Shown piece after piece: positions 15,073-55,500 of a stretch of 64,000 nt of DNA. A model generated the notes under the pieces. The model made no database searches. It was given only the letters and a program-made list of their open reading frames with translations, and was not told the origin of the DNA. The translations under genes were made by a program, and so were the position numbers. The stretch is taken from positions 4,650,001 through 4,714,000 of the forward strand of contig OZ004589.1 in assembly GCA_963924555.1 (NCBI GenBank), given 5' to 3'. Origin of the DNA: Crambe crambe (Eukaryota > Porifera > Demospongiae > Poecilosclerida > Crambeidae). How positions within the stretch are numbered: the stretch's first letter is position 1; every line of letters starts with the position of its first letter.

Positions 15073-18000
15073 TCACCTTTTATTGAGAGATAGTTTATCA
15101 AGTTTTTGTTCATGCCTAAGCATCAAAGATCGGTATCTTCTAACATCACTGGAATTAAAGTAATCATTTACAATGAGATATATACCTTTTTCATTGATAT
15201 GATCAATGAAAAGTTTTATTTTTTCATCTAGAAGAGATTCATCAATATGAATTTGATAGATTGGATTGAAATGACTTGAAGAACCAATCTTCGACATTAA
15301 TGCTACCACTCCAGGACCTGATAGAGGGTTACATTTAAGATCTAAAAAAAAGAGGGATATTTCACTTGCTGTTATAGCTAGACAGTCCAGTCCTTTATCA
15401 TTTACATTGCAGTTGCATAGTCCCAAGCGATTTATTTTCCCTCTGATCCTCACTGCCTCACTTAGAAGAGGAATCACCTCTCTAAGGTCACCATCTCGTA
15501 TATGCAGTCCTGTCAGGTGACTTTTAACAAATATGAGAAGAATCAGATAGTGTATATGACTGCTATTAATATTACTATTCAAAATTTCAAGAGAAATCAG
15601 AGGAGAACTATTATCTAATCCTTCTATGATCGATGTCAAAATAGCAGGTGTATTGTTACAATCAAAGCTCAAAGAAAGGCTTACTAAAAGGTTATAGGGT
15701 CCTGTGAGTAGAGTTCTTATAGATGTTATTGCTCTTCTAGTATTAAGTGGATCTGAGAGCACCAATATTATACATGGAGTTTTGCAGAAGGACAATTTCT
15801 TTTTCATTTGTCCTGCCAAAGCTTCAATGCATATGCCATTGATACAACAATCAGTCAGATTAAGTCTTAACATAGTGTTCTCTTTCATATTCTGTGACTT
15901 AAGTCTAGCATAGTAGCCAATAGACAGACAATCTGATGGGTACAAGGTAAGGTACTGAAATGGAAGGCACCTATTTAATTGTGAGATGTCCAAAGCGGCT
16001 GCATTTGGCTGCGTGCTAATTAGTACCTTAGTGAGCAATTTATCATCTACTGGATTAAAAAGTTTGACCAAGCCTTCGTCTTGACACTCATATATACAGT
16101 TCAGTGATGCCAAAATCCAGCGCCTGGTGTCATTGGATATTTTGTTTGCATGAATTAACATTTCAATGCGATCATATTTAGAGCTCTTGGTTTTCAGGAG
16201 ATTCAAAAATTTTTGATTTTTAAGTTTAGTTAATCCAGCATAGAAGGTTAATATAGGATTAAGAGGGTCTTCATCTAATATCTTCTTCATGGCCAAAGCT
16301 TCTTTATCTTCATCTCCTGTGCATTCATTTCCCATCCACTTCACATAAAGAGCAGCAAGGAATTCCTGAATTGACAAGTGAGGGAAACTGTAATAACTTT
16401 CTAGGCCATTCACTGTTCTTTCACACGTAATTTCAAGTAACCCGAGATTTTCATTAGGTTTCCCCATACCAAGCTTTTTAAGTTCACTGTAAGTCATTTT
16501 CTTCTTGCTGGAAGCAGACGCATTGAAGGCTAAAAAACAAAGTTCTGTTAGTGCGTGCTTGATATCTGGTGGCAGATCAGATTCCAAGTCTTGTATCATT
16601 GTTTCCTCATGTTGTGTGCGTGTCTGCAAATGTCTCACAATGAAGTTACATAGCATCAAGCAGAAAAGGTCAGTACGAGTTACAGGCATGTTGTCGTCAT
16701 TCAATTTCTCGTGGATGAATATCAGTATCACAGCATTAATGGGAAGGTCACACAACGTGCACAGGTTGGAATTCAACTCCAACAAGCGATTAATTCTTTC
16801 TCTCTTTTCTTTGTCATCCTGCAGCAGTTTATCAAAAATATCACCAGTCAAACAACCCTTTAATAACAATTTTTCTTGGTGAATATGATTCCATCGAGTT
16901 TTAGCTGATGGTCTTGAAGTCAGTAAAAAGATAGACTGAGATAGCCCAGATTCATTTCTTAAAAAAATTGAATCAATCTTTTTCCAAAGACATATTTGTA
17001 CTTCATCACAGCCATCGAAAACAAAGCATACACCCTTACCCTTTTTCCTAATGATTTCTGCTATCACAGTGCCCCGCATGTTATGGTCAAAATGAGGAAT
17101 AAAGTCTGCTAAATCGTTTGCTTCTTCTAATGCAGAACTGTTCAATGGAATGTGAATCATTAGGCTGAATTGTTTGTACAATTCACCGAGTGCCCACTGC
17201 TTACAGATATGCCAGATGAGTGTGGTCTTACCTGAGCCAGCAACTCCTTCAATGACAAATACTTTTTTTGAAGAGTCTGATTGAGTGTGTCCATCAAATA
17301 TTTCATCTAACTTGATTGGTTTTGTTACCTTTGATTCCTTGCATTTGTAGAGAGCTTGGCTGACATAGCATTTGTGATTGAAATATGGCCATTGGTCAGA
17401 GGATGGGTGTGCTTTCGTTTTGTAGATTTCAATGATGTCTTCACGAAACATCTTCACTGCTTCATTCTCAAAACTAACAGTCTTAAGCAGAAGCTCTCTT
17501 ACCTTTTTGGCTACTTTAACCTGCTGGCATTTGCATGCATCTGTGAAAAGATTCCTGTATGTTGCATAGTCCGTTGCTTTATTCATTTTCCATTTTGTCA
17601 TAATCAACGGCTTTGGTATCTTCTTCCAGCTTGTGCAACCTCTGCATATTTCTTCTCTTTTTTGACTGGTTAGACCAAAGATATGAGCTTCTTGATCCTT
17701 GAAAACAATTTCTCTTGCAAGAACAGAAAGGTCATTTTCTGTTACAAGTGCATCTAAGTTTTCAGTAGGGATATCATTGAATAAATGATCAGATATCAAT
17801 GTTAATTCAAAATGACCTGCAACAGGACAATTTCCACAATATTAATATTAATAGTTTAATAAAGGATTTATTCTAAATAAAAAAATAAGTAAGTAGGGAT
17901 GGCTATGTATAAAGCTCAAAAAAAAAAAAAAAAAAAAAGAGACCTCAATAACAACACCCATAATACCCAACTACCTTCACTTCCTATGAGTGCTCTAAGC

Positions 18001-20712
18001 TCTAAAACTGTCAGTACAGCGAGATATTGTGTAATGTGCTTTCTGAGCAATGGCTGAGAACTAGAAGATGGCATGTAATTAGTTATGAGTAGTAGCTAAG
18101 TACTGAGATGAGAACAATAAAGCCTGCAAGAGCAGAAATATTAGCTAGATTAATATATCTTTCTATACTTGGGGCACAACCGCATAATTAAGTGATTTTC
18201 TAGAAAATAAGCAACGTGCATGTGAACATTATTTCCAGTCATGCCATGTATGCACAGCTAGTTCTTAGAATCAGTGGGTAGAGCTTCAAACTAGAAGCTA
18301 GTTTATGCTGCTCTGGTTTTGGCCGGACCAGATTTTCTATCAGGTGGGCGTGGTTGGTCGTGGTTGTCGATCGTGCATGCTCCTGCATGTGGCATGCTAG
18401 CTAACTAGCTAGCTGCTGATATTGCGGACATAACTACCCCATCAGCCTCAGAAATTTAGATTTCCTAGGAGAAAATTCGGGAAAACAAGAGCTCTTTCCG
18501 CTCAGATTGGTCTAGAGATATTTGAAAGGTCTTTCGCAATGCGACAAGTGATCATCTGTTGGCCTGACCACTGAAAAAATGCTTCCGCCACCCATGTAGA
18601 GCTACCTTCGGTATTTGGTTGTTCTTCTCTGGGCTGGTTGCTCTTCTCTGACTTTAAATTCTACTTAGTTGTGTGTGCATGTGTGCAGGCATGACCGAAA
18701 ATAATGTTCACATTCTCAAAAAAGCTGTATCATTTTCTACTGGGTAGCTATGCAGTGCACCACGTAAATAGCTAGCTTATTATTAATAGACCACAATTTA
18801 CCAATCTACGTAGCTACTTACTAATAATTCCAGATCCACCAAGCTCAAATCAAGCTAGACTATAAAAACTATGCTAACTACTTAGCTACTATTAGTTCAA
18901 AGGTCGACTAATTTGGAAATAGACAAATTTATTTCCTGACGAAATTGTGACCTGATTTGCAAAAACCCACATTGTACCGAAAATTTAAAAAAAATTTTAC
19001 TAGCTATATTGATAATATTCACTATGGGCTTTGGCTCTGTACCATGCAAATTTCAAAGCTCTAGCTCCTATGACGCTAGAGGAATAGCTTCTAGAAAACT
19101 GCAAGTAGCGTCCATTGGTGTTTAAATTTTCTAGAGAAAAGGCTGAATAACAACGTGAACATTGAATCCATTCATGCCTGCGCACTATTAAAATTGAGTG
19201 GGTGTGATTTCAAACTTGAGTGAGAGAGAACCTCCTGCCAACTAAAGCCCAGAGAAGAGCAATAAGGTACTGAAGGTGCCATAGTTAGCTCAGTTAGTTC
19301 AAGCTAGAAAGCCTGGATTAGTTATGGTGATTTCCCACACAAATGGATTTCTGTGCATGAAACTTTTCTACTTTAGTCTCATCCCTATCCTCATTCGCTT
19401 GAGCAATGGTCATCGCTACACTTTCTTTCATCAATATTAAAGGTGGTTTTTTAAAGGTGGTTTTATAGCTCAAACTAAGGTTGGACCATCACTTGGACTT
19501 AACCAAAGCTATATATGATCCTGTGGAGCGGACTACATATACTTATTTGTTTAACTGGCTATGGCAGGTTCAAGTGTTCCCTTCTTGTTCAACACATAAG
19601 CATGGCCTGGTTGGTACTGATAATTGTGCCATCATTAATTTTTTATCTTCACTCATTGCTCTGATGGTGAACCAGGGCTAGAAGTCTGAGGGGGAATAGT
19701 GTAGAGCCTGAGGCTGTGATCATCTCCTCTGGCTTAATTAAGGGAAAGCGGCATGAATAAGGAAATTCTTTGCCACTAGTCCAGAATTCCAATAGCTTTC
19801 TTACGGTATCTTGTAGCGCATGCTCATACACGTAGTTACATGTCTGTGACCTCACACACCGTCATAAAGTGTAATAGGCAGGAATTTCGCATGAAAATTT
19901 CAGCACATGTGTGAACAGTGGGTGGCTTTATTTCCTGCCTCTGCATAATTTTAGAGCCTCGGTACGATGCTAGGTGTACTGTTAGCTAACTCTGATTAGC
20001 TACACATGATGCTGCTTGTTTTTTGTTTGTTTTCAAGGGAATACTCTGCTACCATAGTGGATTTGCTAGCTAGCATTTTCAAGCAGGAATATTTTACAGT
20101 TAACCTTACCTCTTGTATGGTACAACTTGAGTGCAGCTTCAACTTCATCAGCAGCCAAGAGTGCTTCAGCCAGAGTCTTATAAGTTACATCATTGCCATT
20201 ATCCAACCACAACTGAAGCATCTCGGATATCCGTCTCTTGATGTCATCTTTATGATTTATTTCTATCACCTTCAATTCATATTCCTCCAAATTCAGAGCA
20301 ATTCCCACGCCAAACCAGTTCAAGATAGGTAGGAAATTAATATCCTTTAATACCTTTGGAGTTGTAGCTGTGGGGAAAAAAAAAAAAAAAAAATTAGCTA
20401 GCTGGATATCAACTTCTTATTAAGCTTACATCCAGCTGCCCCAGTTCTGGGTCCAGGGTTAAGCTCCACATCTCCAGAGAGTAGTAGAAGACCAATGATT
20501 AGCCAGGCCGGCTTGCCTTTTCCTCTGGAACGAAAGGGCGTTCCTACTCTGCCCCACAGTCGGATTTTTCTCAAACGCACGCGTACGAGGTCCTTGATCG
20601 CCAGAGAGCAAGTCTTGGACCTCTCTTCCCCCTCGGACTTCCAAGTGGACCACTCGCATAGAAACGACACACACAGACCCACCAAAACAAAACTAAAGAA
20701 TGAAGTCGACAT
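15073..20712 (-). CDS. NLR immune receptor: N-terminal 2A leader, two death-like domains, NACHT, LRR
   Basis: There are three exons: 20712-20430, 20367-20110 and 17816-15073. The introns are 62 bp (GTAAGC donor, polypyrimidine plus CCCCACAG acceptor) and 2.29 kb (GTAAGG donor, GTTGCAG acceptor). Phases agree at both junctions, giving 1094 residues. The ATG at 20712 is the first in frame after an upstream TAA. Residues 1-94 form a leader with a hydrophobic start (SFFSFVLVGLCVSFLC), a basic middle and WLIIGLLLLSG running into DVELNPGP at 81-88. Residues 96-180 and about 182-290 look like two death-fold domains. NACHT follows, with Walker A GVAGSGKT at 371-378, Walker B VFDGCDEV near 446-453 and LLTSRPSA at 478-485. 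HLSIQEFLAALY marks the helical region, and degenerate ribonuclease-inhibitor-type leucine-rich repeats lie at about 790-1060. NLRs of this type are cytosolic sensors of microbial signals. If the 2A works, protein starting at Pro88 is released without its leader. Confidence 0.9.
17817..20109. other. large NLR intron with inverted-repeat elements
   Basis: This 2.29-kb intron contrasts with the 62-bp intron of the same gene. It contains an inverted pair at about 18216-18246 and 18680-18719 (GCATGTGAACATTATTTCC against its complement), a further related copy near 19141-19180, and an inverted block around 18600-18660 and 19245-19285 (CTTCTCTGGGC). A poly-A tract of about 20 lies near the acceptor at 17920-17939. 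No exon that keeps phase was found inside. Confidence 0.55.
20449..20472 (-). other. 2A-type ribosome-skipping motif DVELNPGP
   Basis: The codons for Asp81 to Pro88 of the NLR match the canonical D(V/I)ExNPGP motif at every fixed position, preceded by the usual leucine-rich, helix-forming stretch (LIIGLLLLSG). In the known mechanism the Gly-Pro peptide bond is not made and translation continues from the proline. The split would fall seven residues before the first death-domain exon, so all signalling domains would be freed from an 87-residue leader. Confidence 0.9.
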
Positions 20713-21514: not shown

Positions 21515-23097
21515 TTATTTGGCAAAAGTAGTTCCATTGTAGCCAACTTCAGACCGCTCCTGGTCCTGAAAGGTAAGATAGGCCCTGCAGAACACACACA
21601 GTAATAATTTGTGACTGCTTAATGATGTTCAAGTGACAATGATATACCAAGCTCTCCTTCCCAGTCTGTGGACAAGCAGAGACAAATACTGACCAATTTG
21701 ATCGTTTGGCAAGTATAACAACTTAAATGAGGAAGAGAAACCATGTACATACAAATTACCTACCAAGCATTGGACACTAACCATAACAGGAATATTAATA
21801 ATTTGTGCTCTGCAAGTGTATGCTGTAAGTTGCTACCCTACCCCTCTGGCCTTTCTGCCAAAGTCTTTCTCCCACAGAATCAGTAGCTTTACTATTCTCT
21901 ATAGTGGCCACCATTGGGGGATAAAGTTTTGTCCTTTATAGTGTTTTTTTTTGGTTTTGTTTTTTGTTGTTGTTTTGTTGTTGTTTTTGTTGTTGTTGTT
22001 TTTTTTCAAGTACTAGACTAACCAGGTGGCCACTCATCATAGGTGGCCATTATGAAGGGTTTTACTGTAGCTACTTTACCATGGTTATCACATACTAGCT
22101 GAGCATTTTCACTGTATTGATAAAATGATGGACAATTCTTACCTAGTGCCCTCGATGTTGAGTTTCTCCTTGATCAGCTTAAAGATTATCTCAGAAAGTT
22201 TCTTGTTCTCCTCCACCCCCAATTTCCCTATGGAGCCAATATGCATAAGAGCACATGGCTCTTCAGTGCCGGCAAAGCTCATCATCTGATCCGGCATCAC
22301 ACACACACTGATGTACTGCAGGAGAGAAAATACTAACTTAATCATCACTAGAGAAAATGCTGAATCAGCACTAGTGGATGGAGCCACCCCCTCCGAAATT
22401 TAAAAAAAAAATCGGAGGATCTGGGCTGTCACCTAACTGTTAATTCCCACAGCTAATTACATGCCTTTTAGACTTTTAGTGAAACAGGCAATTATCACAG
22501 TGTGAGTGTTAATCTGTGATGTACTGAATAGCCGCAACCAGCATAATCCATAGAAATGAATAATAATTATGGTGGGTAAGAAGTAGACTACTGCATGTGC
22601 ATACCATGTGTGTTACCAGACCCTTGCACTGGAGTTGCGGAAGTGCTTGGGGCTGGCTGCGCCAGACTATTGCATGCCCTCTTGCCACTTTGTGGCTTGG
22701 TACACCCTTGTGCACACTAAAACTACATGGGGGGATGGACGCAACACAAAATACCAAACTCGGAATTACACTAAAAAAAAATAGTGGGAGAGAGAACTTT
22801 GCAAGGGTAGCTAACAAGTATAACAACAAAACAATAACAAAAACAAAAACCACAGAAACCATTGAGGAGTTCCAAACTGGAATTTATGAGCCCTTTTTTT
22901 TAATGACATAGTAGCTATCCCCAGCTAGCTAGCTATATAAAAGCTACTTCCCTTGGCACGCGTGTTCTCACAGCTATTTATGTTTATACCTGCATTGGCT
23001 TGCCTATGGCCTCCTGAAATATCTTGGTAGTTTCCTGGACGAAATCTGTAGGGATCGATGCCCTAGGAACGTTGGTGACTATCCTAAGTTGAGGCAT
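21515..23097 (-). CDS. MIF: macrophage migration inhibitory factor (MIF) family protein
   Basis: There are three exons, 23097-22990, 22315-22143 and 21584-21515. All introns are GT-AG with matching phases, giving 116 residues, the usual family length. The start MPQLRIVTNVPRAS is the MIF signature, with the catalytic proline exposed after Met removal, then GKPMQYISVCVMPDQMMSFAG and the end VGYNGTTFAK. Lys33 and the SIGK loop of the tautomerase site are present. Two differences from vertebrate MIF stand out. The CxxC redox pair is reduced to one cysteine (CALM instead of CALC). The asparagine of the YIN motif is threonine (AYLTF). MIF is a trimeric phenylpyruvate/dopachrome tautomerase and secreted cytokine-like factor without a signal peptide. 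If exon 2 is read through its donor a TAA follows at once, so the third exon is essential for a full protein. Confidence 0.95.
21950..22008. repeat. T-rich GTT low-complexity tract
   Basis: Simple TTTTGTTG-type sequence inside intron 2 of the MIF gene. No function is inferred. Confidence 0.8.
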
Positions 23098-25094
23098 TTT
23101 CAATCTACAATAGAATAGGTAAAGGGTTCATAGGTGATCTCTCGCGGAGCCACGCCCCTCCCAAAGCTTAAGCTTAAGGGAAAGGTGAATGGGCGGGCTC
23201 CGCGAGATTATTAGGAAATCAAATTGGTCATGAATAATATGCTAAAGTATACTGTTTGACACAGACTGTCTATGTGTATTATAACATGTTTATGTGTACA
23301 AGCTATACAGGAATCACAGTTGGTAGTTGCACTGATGTATCCTCTCTGTGATCACTTGCCAAGTGTAATGCATCAGACTGAGGTATCCATGCAATGTGTC
23401 ACTATTTGACACAGAGGAGATCACAGTATTTGTGGGGCAAGCATGCATGCTCAGTTGGTCATCACCGAAATAACCACTTAGGATAATATGTACGTTTGTA
23501 GAAATTCCTCAGCCGACTCACTAGTGTGGCGCTTGCTTTGCTCACTATATAAATTACTGTAGCTTGGCAAGTATACATTCAAGACCACAAATGGTTACCT
23601 CAGTCATTTCCCTAGTGTCTATCTGCCACTTTGACTGGACCCATAGGTACTCAATATCGACATCATATTTGCTCGCCACATTATCTAAGTGCACTAGATA
23701 ATTATATCCATACATGTTTATATCATGATAATAATAATAATCATAATTATATAAAGTGCATGTGTGACAGTCGAGGGTAGAAATCAAACTTTATTCACAC
23801 TTTCTACTTTTGAAAAAAAAAGTTCGAAAGGCAGAAAATTTCATCAGTCATGACAAAAGTAAACTTAACTGGCATTTGCTTGACTGCATAACATTGTTCA
23901 TATTCATAATTATAACCTCACCACGTTGACTGGGCTCATAGGTCCTTAATTAAATTTGCTCACACTGATATTGTTCCTACAGTGTACTACTATACCCCAT
24001 ACACCCATACATGTTGATCATACCCCATACACCCATACATGTTCATCATCATGACAGATATCATAGTCCATTCCACATTATAGGATAACCCATCATCAGT
24101 CGGAGACTCAGAGTCTATGGCTGTGATGCCCTGGCTGAGCTTCTTAGCATAATTATAGAATGAGAGGTGCTACACTAAAAGGAGCTCTAAAACTAAAATA
24201 ATATTGTCAAGTATAGCGCATTTTTCACTACAACGACCACTGGGTGCACATAAATGTCTTCCTGGATAAAAAAAAGCATAGGAGCAGGAGTTTCCAATCC
24301 CATGTATCTATATGGACCAAGCAATCCACAAATCCTGGCAAAACAGGACTAAATGTAGACCTAATTATCCATAATTAGAAGTGATAGGACACTTATCAAC
24401 TTTCTACAATAAGAGAATGGTTTTAAAAATGTCAATTACCAAGCATTCTTGAAAGTTGCACCAAACAGCCATTGGTTAGCTGCAGCAGTGATAAATCGTA
24501 CAGAAAGTATTGCTGCAGTATTGATCAAGTCAGCTGTCACTACTTAAAGGGCAATGACGAACAAGAGTATGAACTCGAGGACCAAGTACTGACCAGACAG
24601 TGGATGGACACTGTACCATCTCCACCATTGGTCTGAGGCTACACAGTGAATGCCAAGTGATGGCACAACTCCTGGAGTGTATAGGCCAGGTTTACCCTGT
24701 CCTTTATCAGAGGGTCCACTGTAGTTGATAGGAACCACGTGCATGCACCCATCGTGAATTTTCATTATTATTTTTGTAAAAATAATAATAATCATGAGTT
24801 GGAATTTGAGGCACGATAATAAATCAATAAAATGTGAGAGTGGAAATTAACACAACACTAACATTGGAGGGGCTGAACTAGCTAGAGCTAACAATGTGAT
24901 GATATGGTCTAATCACTACAATGGCTTTAAAATAAAAGTTACAGATTTACAAAACTAGTACTGAATCACTCACAACAAACTTAGCTAGCTAGCTATGTGC
25001 ACACTGCGATAATAATAAATAGAATAAATAAATAGGGACAAACAAAAGGAAAGACATTTACCATATAAGGCATAACGCAGGAGCCAATTAAGAG
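23098..25094. other. intergenic region between MIF and MIDN with duplicated blocks
   Basis: A short palindromic element has arms 23137-23157 and 23191-23208 (TCTCGCGGAGCC). Two ordered blocks are duplicated: a segment at about 23620-23730 recurs decayed at about 23925-24040 (GACTGGGCTCATAGGT, then CATACATGTT). The first copy has an exon-like frame on the minus strand (VASKYDVDIEYLWVQSKW) with a GTAACC donor. It could be a lost exon, but no partner exons were found. Confidence 0.45.
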
Positions 25095-52500: not shown

Positions 52501-55500
52501 AGCTGGTATTTTAAATGTGGAATTAGGTCAAGAATTGAGAAAGTAAGAGCAGATAGAGCAAATGATCAAGTCAATACGATTTGACTTTAGCTATAGAAAC
52601 ATTTCTAAGTACTAGTCACTGAAATGAACATCCTTAAATCAGTATAATTATTATGAGAAATTTTTGTGATCCAAACTTCTTTCCCAAGTCTACTGGTACT
52701 GTAGATTGCATGTCACTCGCTGATGTTGTCATTCTTGCAATGAGCAAGAATGACCTATAGATGTATGTATGTATTATTGTGTTCTTCATGCCCTAGGGCT
52801 ACACCGCTCAATACAGCTTGAAGATATTATGAAGTACAAGTGTTACGAGGGTGAGAGAATGGACAAGGTATGCCAAGAGTTCTCTGAAAAGGTACGTGTA
52901 GATGAGTCATAAAAGTGATTTTTTTTTTTTAAGGTCCCCCACCAAACCCTGACTTTCCTCCCTACTGTAACAAGGCATGGGGCAAGACATGCCTGTGGGT
53001 TATTGCATATTTGGATGTGACATGTGTGAAGGCTTTGTGTGTGTGCCATGGATATTACAGTCGTGAATATCATTATAAAAATGTCCTGAGGGCTCATAAA
53101 AGGGATCAATCAGTCAGAAAAAGAACTGAGCACATGATGATACAAGATTTGATATACCATGATACTGTATAAGAGTATACAGAGCCCATGACACGTTATA
53201 CAGGAGTATACAGAGCCCATGACACGTTATACAGAGCCCATGACATGTTATACAGGAGTATACAGAGCCCATGACACGTTATACAGAGCCCATGACATGT
53301 TATAGGAGTATACAGAGCCCATGACAATATGCAGAGCCATAATAATACATAGTACACAGAGCCCATAACATTATACAGGGTCCATAGCATTATACAGAGC
53401 CCATAGCATTATACAGAGCCCATAGCATTATACAGAGCCCATAGCATTATACAGAGCCCATAGCATTATACAGGGTCCATGTACATACTAGAATGACTTC
53501 TATATACATTATTATGCAGAAAGGGAAACATATAGAGACGGTCACTGCTATATTTGACTTTGAAGACCTGAGCTTCCAGAAACACTTATACTGGCCTGCC
53601 ATCGACCAATTTAAAAAAGTATGCAACCAGTAATGATAGCATAAGGTATATCACTACATGTTTGTGAGACATGTACACTCCAAAATTAGATCAGCTTTTT
53701 TTTTTTCTGTGAAATGTTTGTAAAATGACCAAGAATTTGTTATCTACTAATCTGTTGCTACATCACGTGACAGCCCCTGGGAGAAACATTTTCACACATG
53801 TATGCTTTGTGTTCTATAATGATTGGACCATCTCCACACCAAATTCCAGCCCCAAATCAAGTTGGCTATGTACTGCACGTGAAGTGGCAACAAGGATAAC
53901 ATAGGCTCTGGTGTTCCCCCATTTTACTGATAATCTTTCCCCCAAAGCTGCTCTGCCTGTGTACGTGTACACACATTAATTGTTGGTGCTTCCCTAACAA
54001 AACTTACGATATTTTTGTTATGTTATTTTAGCTGATGGCTGCAGATGAAGCAAATAACCCAGAACGAGCCAAGACAGTGATAATGCTGAAAAGTAAATAT
54101 AGATTACAACCCTAATGTACATGTACCTAAGTATCCACCCCCCCTTCAATTTTCTATTAATGCCGCCCCCTCTCCATTTTATGATAATCACTGCAGCCCC
54201 TTAATTTTCTCATTCTATTTAATGCCACCTCATTCCAGAACATTATCAATTCCCCCTCAATTTCCCACTCTATCCTTCATTCCATTGCAGCCCCCTCAAT
54301 ATTTCCGTTTTGCTATAACATTGTGAAGCATCTCATGGACGAGAGAACCAGGAAGAAGATTGTGGTCTTGGGAGTCAACAGTAAGTTACTAAATGCCAGG
54401 GGGTCCTTAAGTATGTAGTACTACACTAACACAAGCTAGTGTTGTACTATTTACTATATAGTAGCCTTGTAAGCTTTCAGGGGTTCCCAAGCATAGGCTA
54501 TGAAATAGGAAGCTTTCAGGGGTTCCCAAGCATAGGCTATGAAATAGGAAGCTTTCGGGGGTTCCCAAGCATAGGCTATGAAATAGGAAGCTTTCGGGGG
54601 TTCCCAAGCATAGGCTATGAAATAGGAAGCTTTCGGGGGTTCCCAAGCATAGGCTATGAAATAAGAAGCTTTCGGGGGTTCCCAAGCATAGGCTATGAAA
54701 TAGGAAGCTTTCGGGGGTTCCCAAGCATAGGCTATGAAATAGGAAGCTTTCGGGGGTTCCCAAGCATAGGCTATGAAATAGGAAGCTTTCGGGGGTTCCC
54801 AAGCATAGGCTATGAAATAGGAAGCTTTCGGGGGTTCCCAAGCATAGGCTATGAAATAGGAAGCTTTCGGGGGTTCCCAAGCATAGGCTATGAAATAGGA
54901 AGCTTTCAGGGGTTCCCAAGCATAGGCTATGAAATAGGAACGTCCACCTCTCACCAGGGACACTTTTTCTGTTCCTGAAAGTATTGAGGTTCATATGGAA
55001 AGAGTGCTGCAATAATTCAACCTCAGATACATAAACCAATAATGATGTATCAAGCCTATTCAAGACCTATTAAGTACATACAGTACCTAAGGACTACAAT
55101 TACAACATGTGCTTTGATATAGGGATGTGATATGAATAGGGATTTGACACATGGGGTCATCACATGACATCATGATTGTCACATGACATTACAGGTAACT
55201 GGAAGGAGGAGTTGCAGAAGTATATCAGTCCGGACCAGCTGCCAGTTATGTACGGGGGAACCCGACAGGAACCGGATGACCAATGTTCCAATTATCTCCG
55301 GCAAGGTGGGGATGTTCCCCCGAGGTTCTACATGACCAATCAAACAGAGACTAGCAGGAACGAGATGGAGAGGATCACAGTGGGACGAGGTTCAGCACAG
55401 AAAGTTATATACGAGATCGAACAGGTTGGAAGCACGCTTCAGTGGGAATTCTTCACCACCACTTACGACATCTCCTATGAGGTGTACATCAAATCAGCAA

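Follow-up and report, generated by a model that had tools for sequence, protein, structure and literature searches.

In the genome of the demosponge Crambe crambe we have analysed a stretch of 64,000 nucleotides (contig OZ004589.1, positions 4,650,001 to 4,714,000; the whole stretch is called the window in what follows), and its sequence supports the presence of a canonical and conserved 2A/StopGo element which heads an NLR-type gene and lies in phase with the death-domain exon of that gene. Our best reading, to which we assign a probability of about 0.78, is that ribosome skipping at this element would release a signal-bearing leader of 87 amino acids together with a free death-domain/NACHT receptor. 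A 2A core of this kind is encoded at 208 sites in the genome, many of which precede death-domain exons belonging to several gene classes, a scale that the initial annotation of the window could not show.

The receptor gene in the window

The gene is encoded on the minus strand and is composed of the following features.

20430..20712, minus: exon 1, leader plus 2A plus six further codons, with the ATG at 20712 and its end in phase 1 (from translation, the splice model, leader paralogues and relatives)
20656..20706, minus: hydrophobic, signal-like segment, leader residues 3-19 (from hydropathy and shuffles; F5, F6, L10 and S16 fully or almost fully conserved across 20 leaders)
20506..20595, minus: basic stretch, leader residues 40-69, net charge +10, with nearly invariant R48, R51, L52, W53, R55 and V56 (from charge count and leader alignment)
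20473..20490, minus: LLLLSG hexapeptide directly 5' of the 2A core (from translation; LLLLSG-like class of Li 2026)
20449..20472, minus: 2A/StopGo core DVELNPG/P, with the predicted skip between Gly (20454-20452) and Pro (20451-20449) (from the motif)
20368..20429, minus: predicted intron 1, 62 nt, GT-AG, phase 1 (from splice sites)
20110..20367, minus: exon 2, death domain (Pfam PF00531, 34 bits against a cut-off of 22.6)
17817..20109, minus: predicted intron 2, 2.3 kb, GT-AG, phase 1 (from splice sites)
15073..17816, minus: exon 3, ending in a stop, with NACHT at about 17262-16885, NLRC4-type HD2 at about 16380-16063 and a weak LRR at about 15345-15295

Translation of exon 1 (20712-20430, minus strand) gives an open stretch of 94 amino acids which starts MSTSFFSFVLVGLCVSFLC and includes LIIGLLLLSGDVELNPGP; the full reading on this strand is MSTSFFSFVLVGLCVSFLCEWSTWKSEGEERSKTCSLAIKDLVRVRLRKIRLWGRVGTPFRSRGKGKPAWLIIGLLLLSGDVELNPGPRTGAAG. 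The leader has 87 residues up to the skip point (NPG/P) and ends in LLLLSG-DVELNPG/P, and the start ATG has an A at -3. A complete DVELNPGP after a hydrophobic run at the end of exon 1, and a leader of 87 residues, had been described in the initial annotation, where the strand was unstated; translation of the minus strand confirms both. The hydrophobic segment that it placed at residues 3-19 is also present, with a best 11-residue Kyte-Doolittle mean of 2.81 which was reached by 0.8% of 5000 shuffles. This segment and the 2A region of the leader are about 50 residues apart, with the basic stretch between them. A candidate amphipathic helix at leader residues 36-56 was rejected, its hydrophobic moment not being above that of shuffles (p 0.07 to 0.81 in six leaders).

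The 62-nt intron (20368-20429) previously proposed to join exon 1 in phase to the death-domain exon does have GT-AG borders in phase 1, and the splicing of exons 1, 2 and 3 to one another is predicted from phase and splice sites. The death and NACHT domains that had been read on the downstream exons were recovered by Pfam with 34 and 52 bits, respectively. In exon 3 the NACHT is combined with an NLRC4_HD2 domain (41 bits), the pairing expected of an NLR, and an LRR_6 match of 16.5 bits falls below the cut-off of 23.4, so that LRRs are weakly supported. No ATG was found ahead of the death domain in the exon-2 frame, and for this reason exon 1 carries the sole start seen and the natural one. Read without splicing, the frame of exon 1 runs for ten codons into intron 1 and then meets a stop. 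Upstream of exon 1 lies a further minus-strand gene (21515-23100 of the window), whose end is about 800 bp away and which by its resemblance (MPQLRIVTNVPRASIPTDF...) we take to be MIF-like. Elsewhere in the window, positions 54407-55066 hold a tandem repeat of a 13-residue unit that is open on both strands and is probably a minisatellite.

The leader family and constraint on the 2A core

A similarity search with the whole leader, and not with the motif, found 22 further stop-free copies in the genome. None of the leaders L001-L023 has an internal stop, and the core is intact in every one of them; L016 is truncated at its front and L010 has no Met. L028 and L029 are broken or partial copies, and four stop-bearing tandem copies on C13 (L024-L027) are absent from the 208 motif sites. 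These last are decayed leader pieces standing in tandem at C13:2953189-2954629, several of them 231 bp apart. In an alignment of 20 leaders the residues F5, F6, L10, S16, W21, K40, R48, R51, L52, W53, R55 and V56 are invariant or nearly so, and since these lie outside the 2A the leader itself probably matters.

Among 253 pairs of 23 leaders pN/pS was 0.50 overall, 0.56 upstream, 0.13 in the last 14 codons and 0.12 in the last 8, where all 23 carry the motif and core pN is thereby lowered somewhat by choice. The window leader compared with its 22 paralogues gave dN/dS of 0.15-0.39 at dS of 1.1-2.4, which is near saturation. The leaders are under purifying selection, with the lowest pN/pS at the 2A core.

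A degenerate DNA pattern for D[V/I/M]ExNPGP was counted over the whole 143-Mb genome with the reversed pattern as control; the motif is encoded 208 times and the reversed pattern 0 times, and the motif is therefore not due to chance. Residue x is Thr at 97 sites, Ser at 26 and hydrophobic at 85. The sites are spread over 15 contigs and are clustered by strand, since of 193 pairs of neighbours 164 share a strand and 137 lie within 60 kb of each other. Requiring Gly before Asp leaves 207 intact sites (C20:1572361 is the sole one of the 77 sites read that has no Gly there). When the final Pro, after the skip, is left free the count is still 207, which means that this Pro is present in 207/207 and is nowhere the one residue lost; with the inner Pro free instead, the count rises to 208, so one site has lost that residue (present in 207/208). 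The copies differ at many synonymous positions, and such retention of the skipping prolines is not expected without selection. The window sequence has the sequence features of a 2A: DVELNPGP fits the core (D/G/C/N)(V/I)ExNPGP, LLLLSG is a recognised upstream context when set against the classes of Li 2026, and the skipping residues are constrained, as seen in the proline counts and in the core pN/pS of 0.12.

With the last 14 residues removed, BLAST at E 1e-4 sorts the leaders into 17 groups, 13 of them with a death exon; this is an upper estimate because short or broken leaders cannot be joined. Site C15:5094115 overlaps L028, and L028 resembles leader group 1. The 2A is common to leader groups that BLAST does not join.

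When searched against a protein collection, the leader alone matched the frame it came from and also a copy of that of L008, and a profile of nine leaders, scored among the 8000 candidates sharing most words, found further relatives. Of these P0003-P0014 are mostly close to leader copies read from the genome (P0010 70%, P0013 83%). Another 14 relatives (P0015-P0028) share no more than 55% identity with any leader read from the genome, and on this account probably derive from one or more other genomes. The sequence DVE[L/V]NPGP is kept in 13 of these 14, P0026 being without NPGP, and they are not all full-length, as the front end of P0027 is missing. P0035, a relative of lesser length, carries NVELNPGP, and the expanded motif of Li 2026 (PMC12846837) covers this core. 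The leader and death domain as a single query had no match in the protein collection at E<=1, and the leader searched against PDB sequences gave three beta-lactamases at E of about 0.5, which is chance. No leader relatives were found in the viral contigs searched, and L097 was the sole match in the genome contigs searched with the leader profile.

What follows the 2A exons elsewhere in the genome

We read 77 of the 208 sites, which were selected by leader similarity, by list position (first 30) and by hand and are not a random sample. A death exon lies on the same strand within 1.5 kb downstream at 38 of them (E<=1e-3), compared with none antisense and one upstream; at the remaining 39 there is no death exon within 1.5 kb at this threshold, the profile having been seeded from 10 of the 77 sites and 9 sites having only 0.9-1.4 kb of sequence. 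In L003, L004, L007 and L010, too, the 2A is followed by a death exon at a distance of about 97 nt. Good splice donors (score >=4) within 40 nt after NPGP were in phase 1 in 56 cases, in phase 0 in three and in phase 2 in three, with none at 20 of the 77 sites; at a score >=3 the counts for phases 1, 0 and 2 were 73, 10 and 9. A control scan upstream of the 2A gave 0 donors in phase 1 and 10 in phase 0. The death exons form a non-redundant set of 29, of which 14 match Pfam Death individually, and the joint death-exon profile matched 26 PDB sequences (e.g., FADD, RIPK1, PIDD, Fas, ankyrin, and THOC1), all of which are, we presume, death-domain carriers.

Frames of other kinds, tied to 2A leaders by order and strand, were NACHT (L069, and C16:2086419 behind the 2A of L071), NB-ARC (L087, 37.9 bits), COR-A and Roc (L061 and L062, below cut-off), ankyrin repeats (L068 and L066) and Ig (L064 and L081). 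It would appear from these loci that the 2A device is not special to the window NLR, and that many other death-domain genes likewise begin with it in a first exon ending in phase 1. In a cluster of nine sites on C1 at 3.55-3.99 Mb (L064, L031-L039) the hydrophobic run is joined directly to the 2A, in a sea-urchin-like manner; L064, the one locus that was read beyond this, has Ig exons, and 0 of the 9 sites have a death exon within 1.5 kb. At L081 (C10:4680474), L075 (C21:3308660) and L088 (C9:6225156) the 2A leader is followed by a death exon and then by an Ig-like frame, an unusual order of cytosolic-type and extracellular-type domains in which the Ig of L081 is the one that was tested by Pfam.

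Seen from the side of the domains the 2A is a minority feature, the genome-wide lists being partial for families as large as NACHT and death. A 2A lies within 12 kb upstream on the same strand in 6 of 103 listed NACHT exons (of 232 candidates, with the window's own NACHT outside the list), on the other strand in 0 and in reversed order in one. The other 97 listed NACHT exons have no 2A within 12 kb. For the death domain, a 2A precedes 4 of the 150 listed matches (of 965 candidates) by no more than 1.5 kb on the same strand, and 0 on the other strand. The expansion of the death domain is itself very large, with 965 candidates genome-wide, of which 150 were scored. The 2A exon often precedes a death exon, yet most of the listed death and NACHT exons have no exact 2A core ahead of them.

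Comparison with known systems

The parallel with sea urchin drawn in the initial annotation stands in so far as a 2A heads a death/NACHT receptor, and fails for the build of the leader. In the available text of Roulston 2016 (PMC4981915) the SpNLR2A of Strongylocentrotus purpuratus has 26 amino acids and the 2A is itself the signal. Both systems have an N-terminal 2A core on a death/NACHT receptor (here by way of predicted splicing) and a hydrophobic, signal-like sequence, and free and fused products are proposed for both. The leader described here differs in that it has 87 amino acids instead of about 26, with the 2A and the signal some 50 residues apart instead of overlapping, in an exon of its own, and in that Roc-COR-like, NB-ARC, ankyrin and Ig exons, too, have 2A exons ahead of them. 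At the moment of skipping the 26 amino acids of SpNLR2A would all still be in the tunnel, whereas residues 3-19 of our leader would be outside. The window element thus passes the sequence tests for a 2A/StopGo and may work like SpNLR2A, and because the length and overlap features of SpNLR2A fail, the new elements are the long leader, its own exon and the presence of 2A exons ahead of several gene classes.

With the LLLLSG-like class of viral 2A/StopGo sequences, as presented in the available text of Li 2026 (PMC12846837), the window shares LLLLSG and DVELNPGP, with Gly at p11 and Asp at p12, but here the element is cellular and sits in the first exon of a receptor gene. StopGo use is described there as rare in cellular genes. 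The 2A-bearing ORFs of non-LTR retrotransposons are represented by L097 (JAAEPJ010000017.1, 373-5088), which lies on a contig in a bacterial MAG, where host contamination is likely, and which by eye looks like a non-LTR retrotransposon whose first ORF has GDVETNPGP near its start. Like the window exon it has a leader and LLLLSGDVETNPGP near the ORF start; unlike it, L097 lacks an intron behind the 2A and continues in frame without a death domain, whereas the window frame, instead of running into ORF1 or RT, closes 10 codons into the intron and is followed by the Death and NACHT exons. The NLRD (death-NACHT-LRR) proteins of the sponge Dysidea avara (PMC12909245) share the death-NACHT architecture and a large NACHT repertoire, but the term 2A-like is absent from the available text of that paper. 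Among the matches listed in one open library (titles and abstract starts) none dealt with 2A-headed genes of sponges or of the Roc-COR, ankyrin or NB-ARC kinds.

Proposed mechanism and alternatives

The motif, its phase, its paralogues, the selection on it and its same-strand link to death exons are features of the genome itself. In the reading that we prefer, exon 1 would be an exon dedicated to the leader, with a functional 2A/StopGo element at its end. Once NPG has been made, the nascent LLLLSGDVELNPG lying in the ribosomal exit tunnel would block the Gly-Pro bond, the 87-aa leader would be released, and translation would resume at the Pro to give a free receptor starting P-RTGAAGS. The hydrophobic segment would at that point be 68-84 residues from the peptidyl-transferase centre, which would place it already outside the ribosome where it can bind SRP or the membrane, so that the leader would probably become a separate ER or membrane peptide. 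A minority of ribosomes may form the Gly-Pro bond, and an unskipped, membrane-directed fusion of the receptor is a plausible product. We infer the splicing, the skipping activity and the fate of both products.

According to the available text of de Felipe 2010, 30-40 residues are held in the tunnel and 65-70 in the ribosome and translocon together, and translocation inhibits 2A for some upstream sequences located 28-48 aa from the P site. In the window leader this zone would be residues 39-59, part of the basic stretch, and since translocon entry can inhibit 2A in vivo (de Felipe 2010) the skipping of a signal-led leader might be low in cells. Cryo-EM of F2A, another 2A, indicates that the nascent chain alters the peptidyl-transferase centre, and four representatives of six motifs that were assayed, including motif 6 (LLLLSG-like), all gave StopGo of about 92.7% to almost 100% (Li 2026, PMC12846837, available text). 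The long-leader layout would let targeting precede skipping and the urchin layout would not, which is a new mechanical prediction.

Dual targeting as in sea urchin is the alternative that we take most seriously, although we lean away from it. The leader would then be the signal, and the efficiency of the 2A would set a ratio of secreted or membrane fusion to cytosolic receptor that is put to use, with this efficiency perhaps lowered further on entry of the leader into the translocon; this is compatible with our best reading and makes the fusion important. Death and NACHT domains act in the cytosol, which speaks against it, as does the near-total retention of the skipping prolines, which fits strong better than leaky skipping. 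An Ig domain is usually extracellular, and two 2A-led groups do go on into Ig exons (L064, L081). The leader N-terminus is hydrophobic, SpNLR2A6 skips at about 80% in vitro with its inactive, non-skipping mutant targeted to the Golgi (Roulston 2016, PMC4981915, available text), and the zone in which translocon entry inhibits 2A for some upstream sequences would lie within this leader (de Felipe 2010, available text).

The other alternatives have far less weight. An inert 2A, in which case the exon would be retained for an ordinary signal or anchor peptide in a receptor that is a single membrane-linked protein, would fit the conservation of the leader beyond the 2A, but constraint peaks in the last 8-14 codons, 207/207 sites have the Pro that follows the scissile bond and leader groups unjoined by BLAST share the 2A, and we consider it improbable. 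We give somewhat less credit still to the 2A being a fragment of a non-LTR retrotransposon which sits by accident before the gene. Elements with 2A-led ORFs do exist (Roulston 2016, PMC4981915, available text), L097 was fetched with the leader profile and resembles one by eye, and P0048, P0060 and P0075 by eye have a PHD-like finger after the 2A; however, L097 continues into its ORFs without an intron, and the 2A sites of the genome come in same-strand clusters with phase-1 donors and death exons. An old origin of the 2A leader from a non-LTR element is conceivable. Least probable of all is that exon 1 is a separate small gene and the NLR starts elsewhere: the unspliced frame does stop shortly past the donor, but exon 2 is without an ATG before the death domain, phase 1 is found on both sides, and the death exon at about 97 nt recurs in the four loci named above.

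Biological significance

The release of a leader and a free receptor, as we prefer to read the window gene, may be extended to ribosome skipping as a general first-exon device in as many as about 200 genes, including many of the death-domain, immune type in at least five classes, each releasing a small signal-bearing leader with its main protein; this extension is speculative and we regard it as rather doubtful. Since the leader would have emerged by the time the 2A acts, skipping could be altered by docking at the membrane, and if this is true the proportion of free to tethered receptor would reflect how the secretory pathway or translation is faring. The sea-urchin NLRs are the cellular 2A case that we found with functional data (Roulston 2016, PMC4981915, available text). 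With 208 encoded 2A cores, many of which are linked to death-domain exons from several gene classes, translational recoding would become a regular element of immune-type gene expression in an animal, and the many natural variants of the leader would make the purpose of a cellular 2A directly testable.
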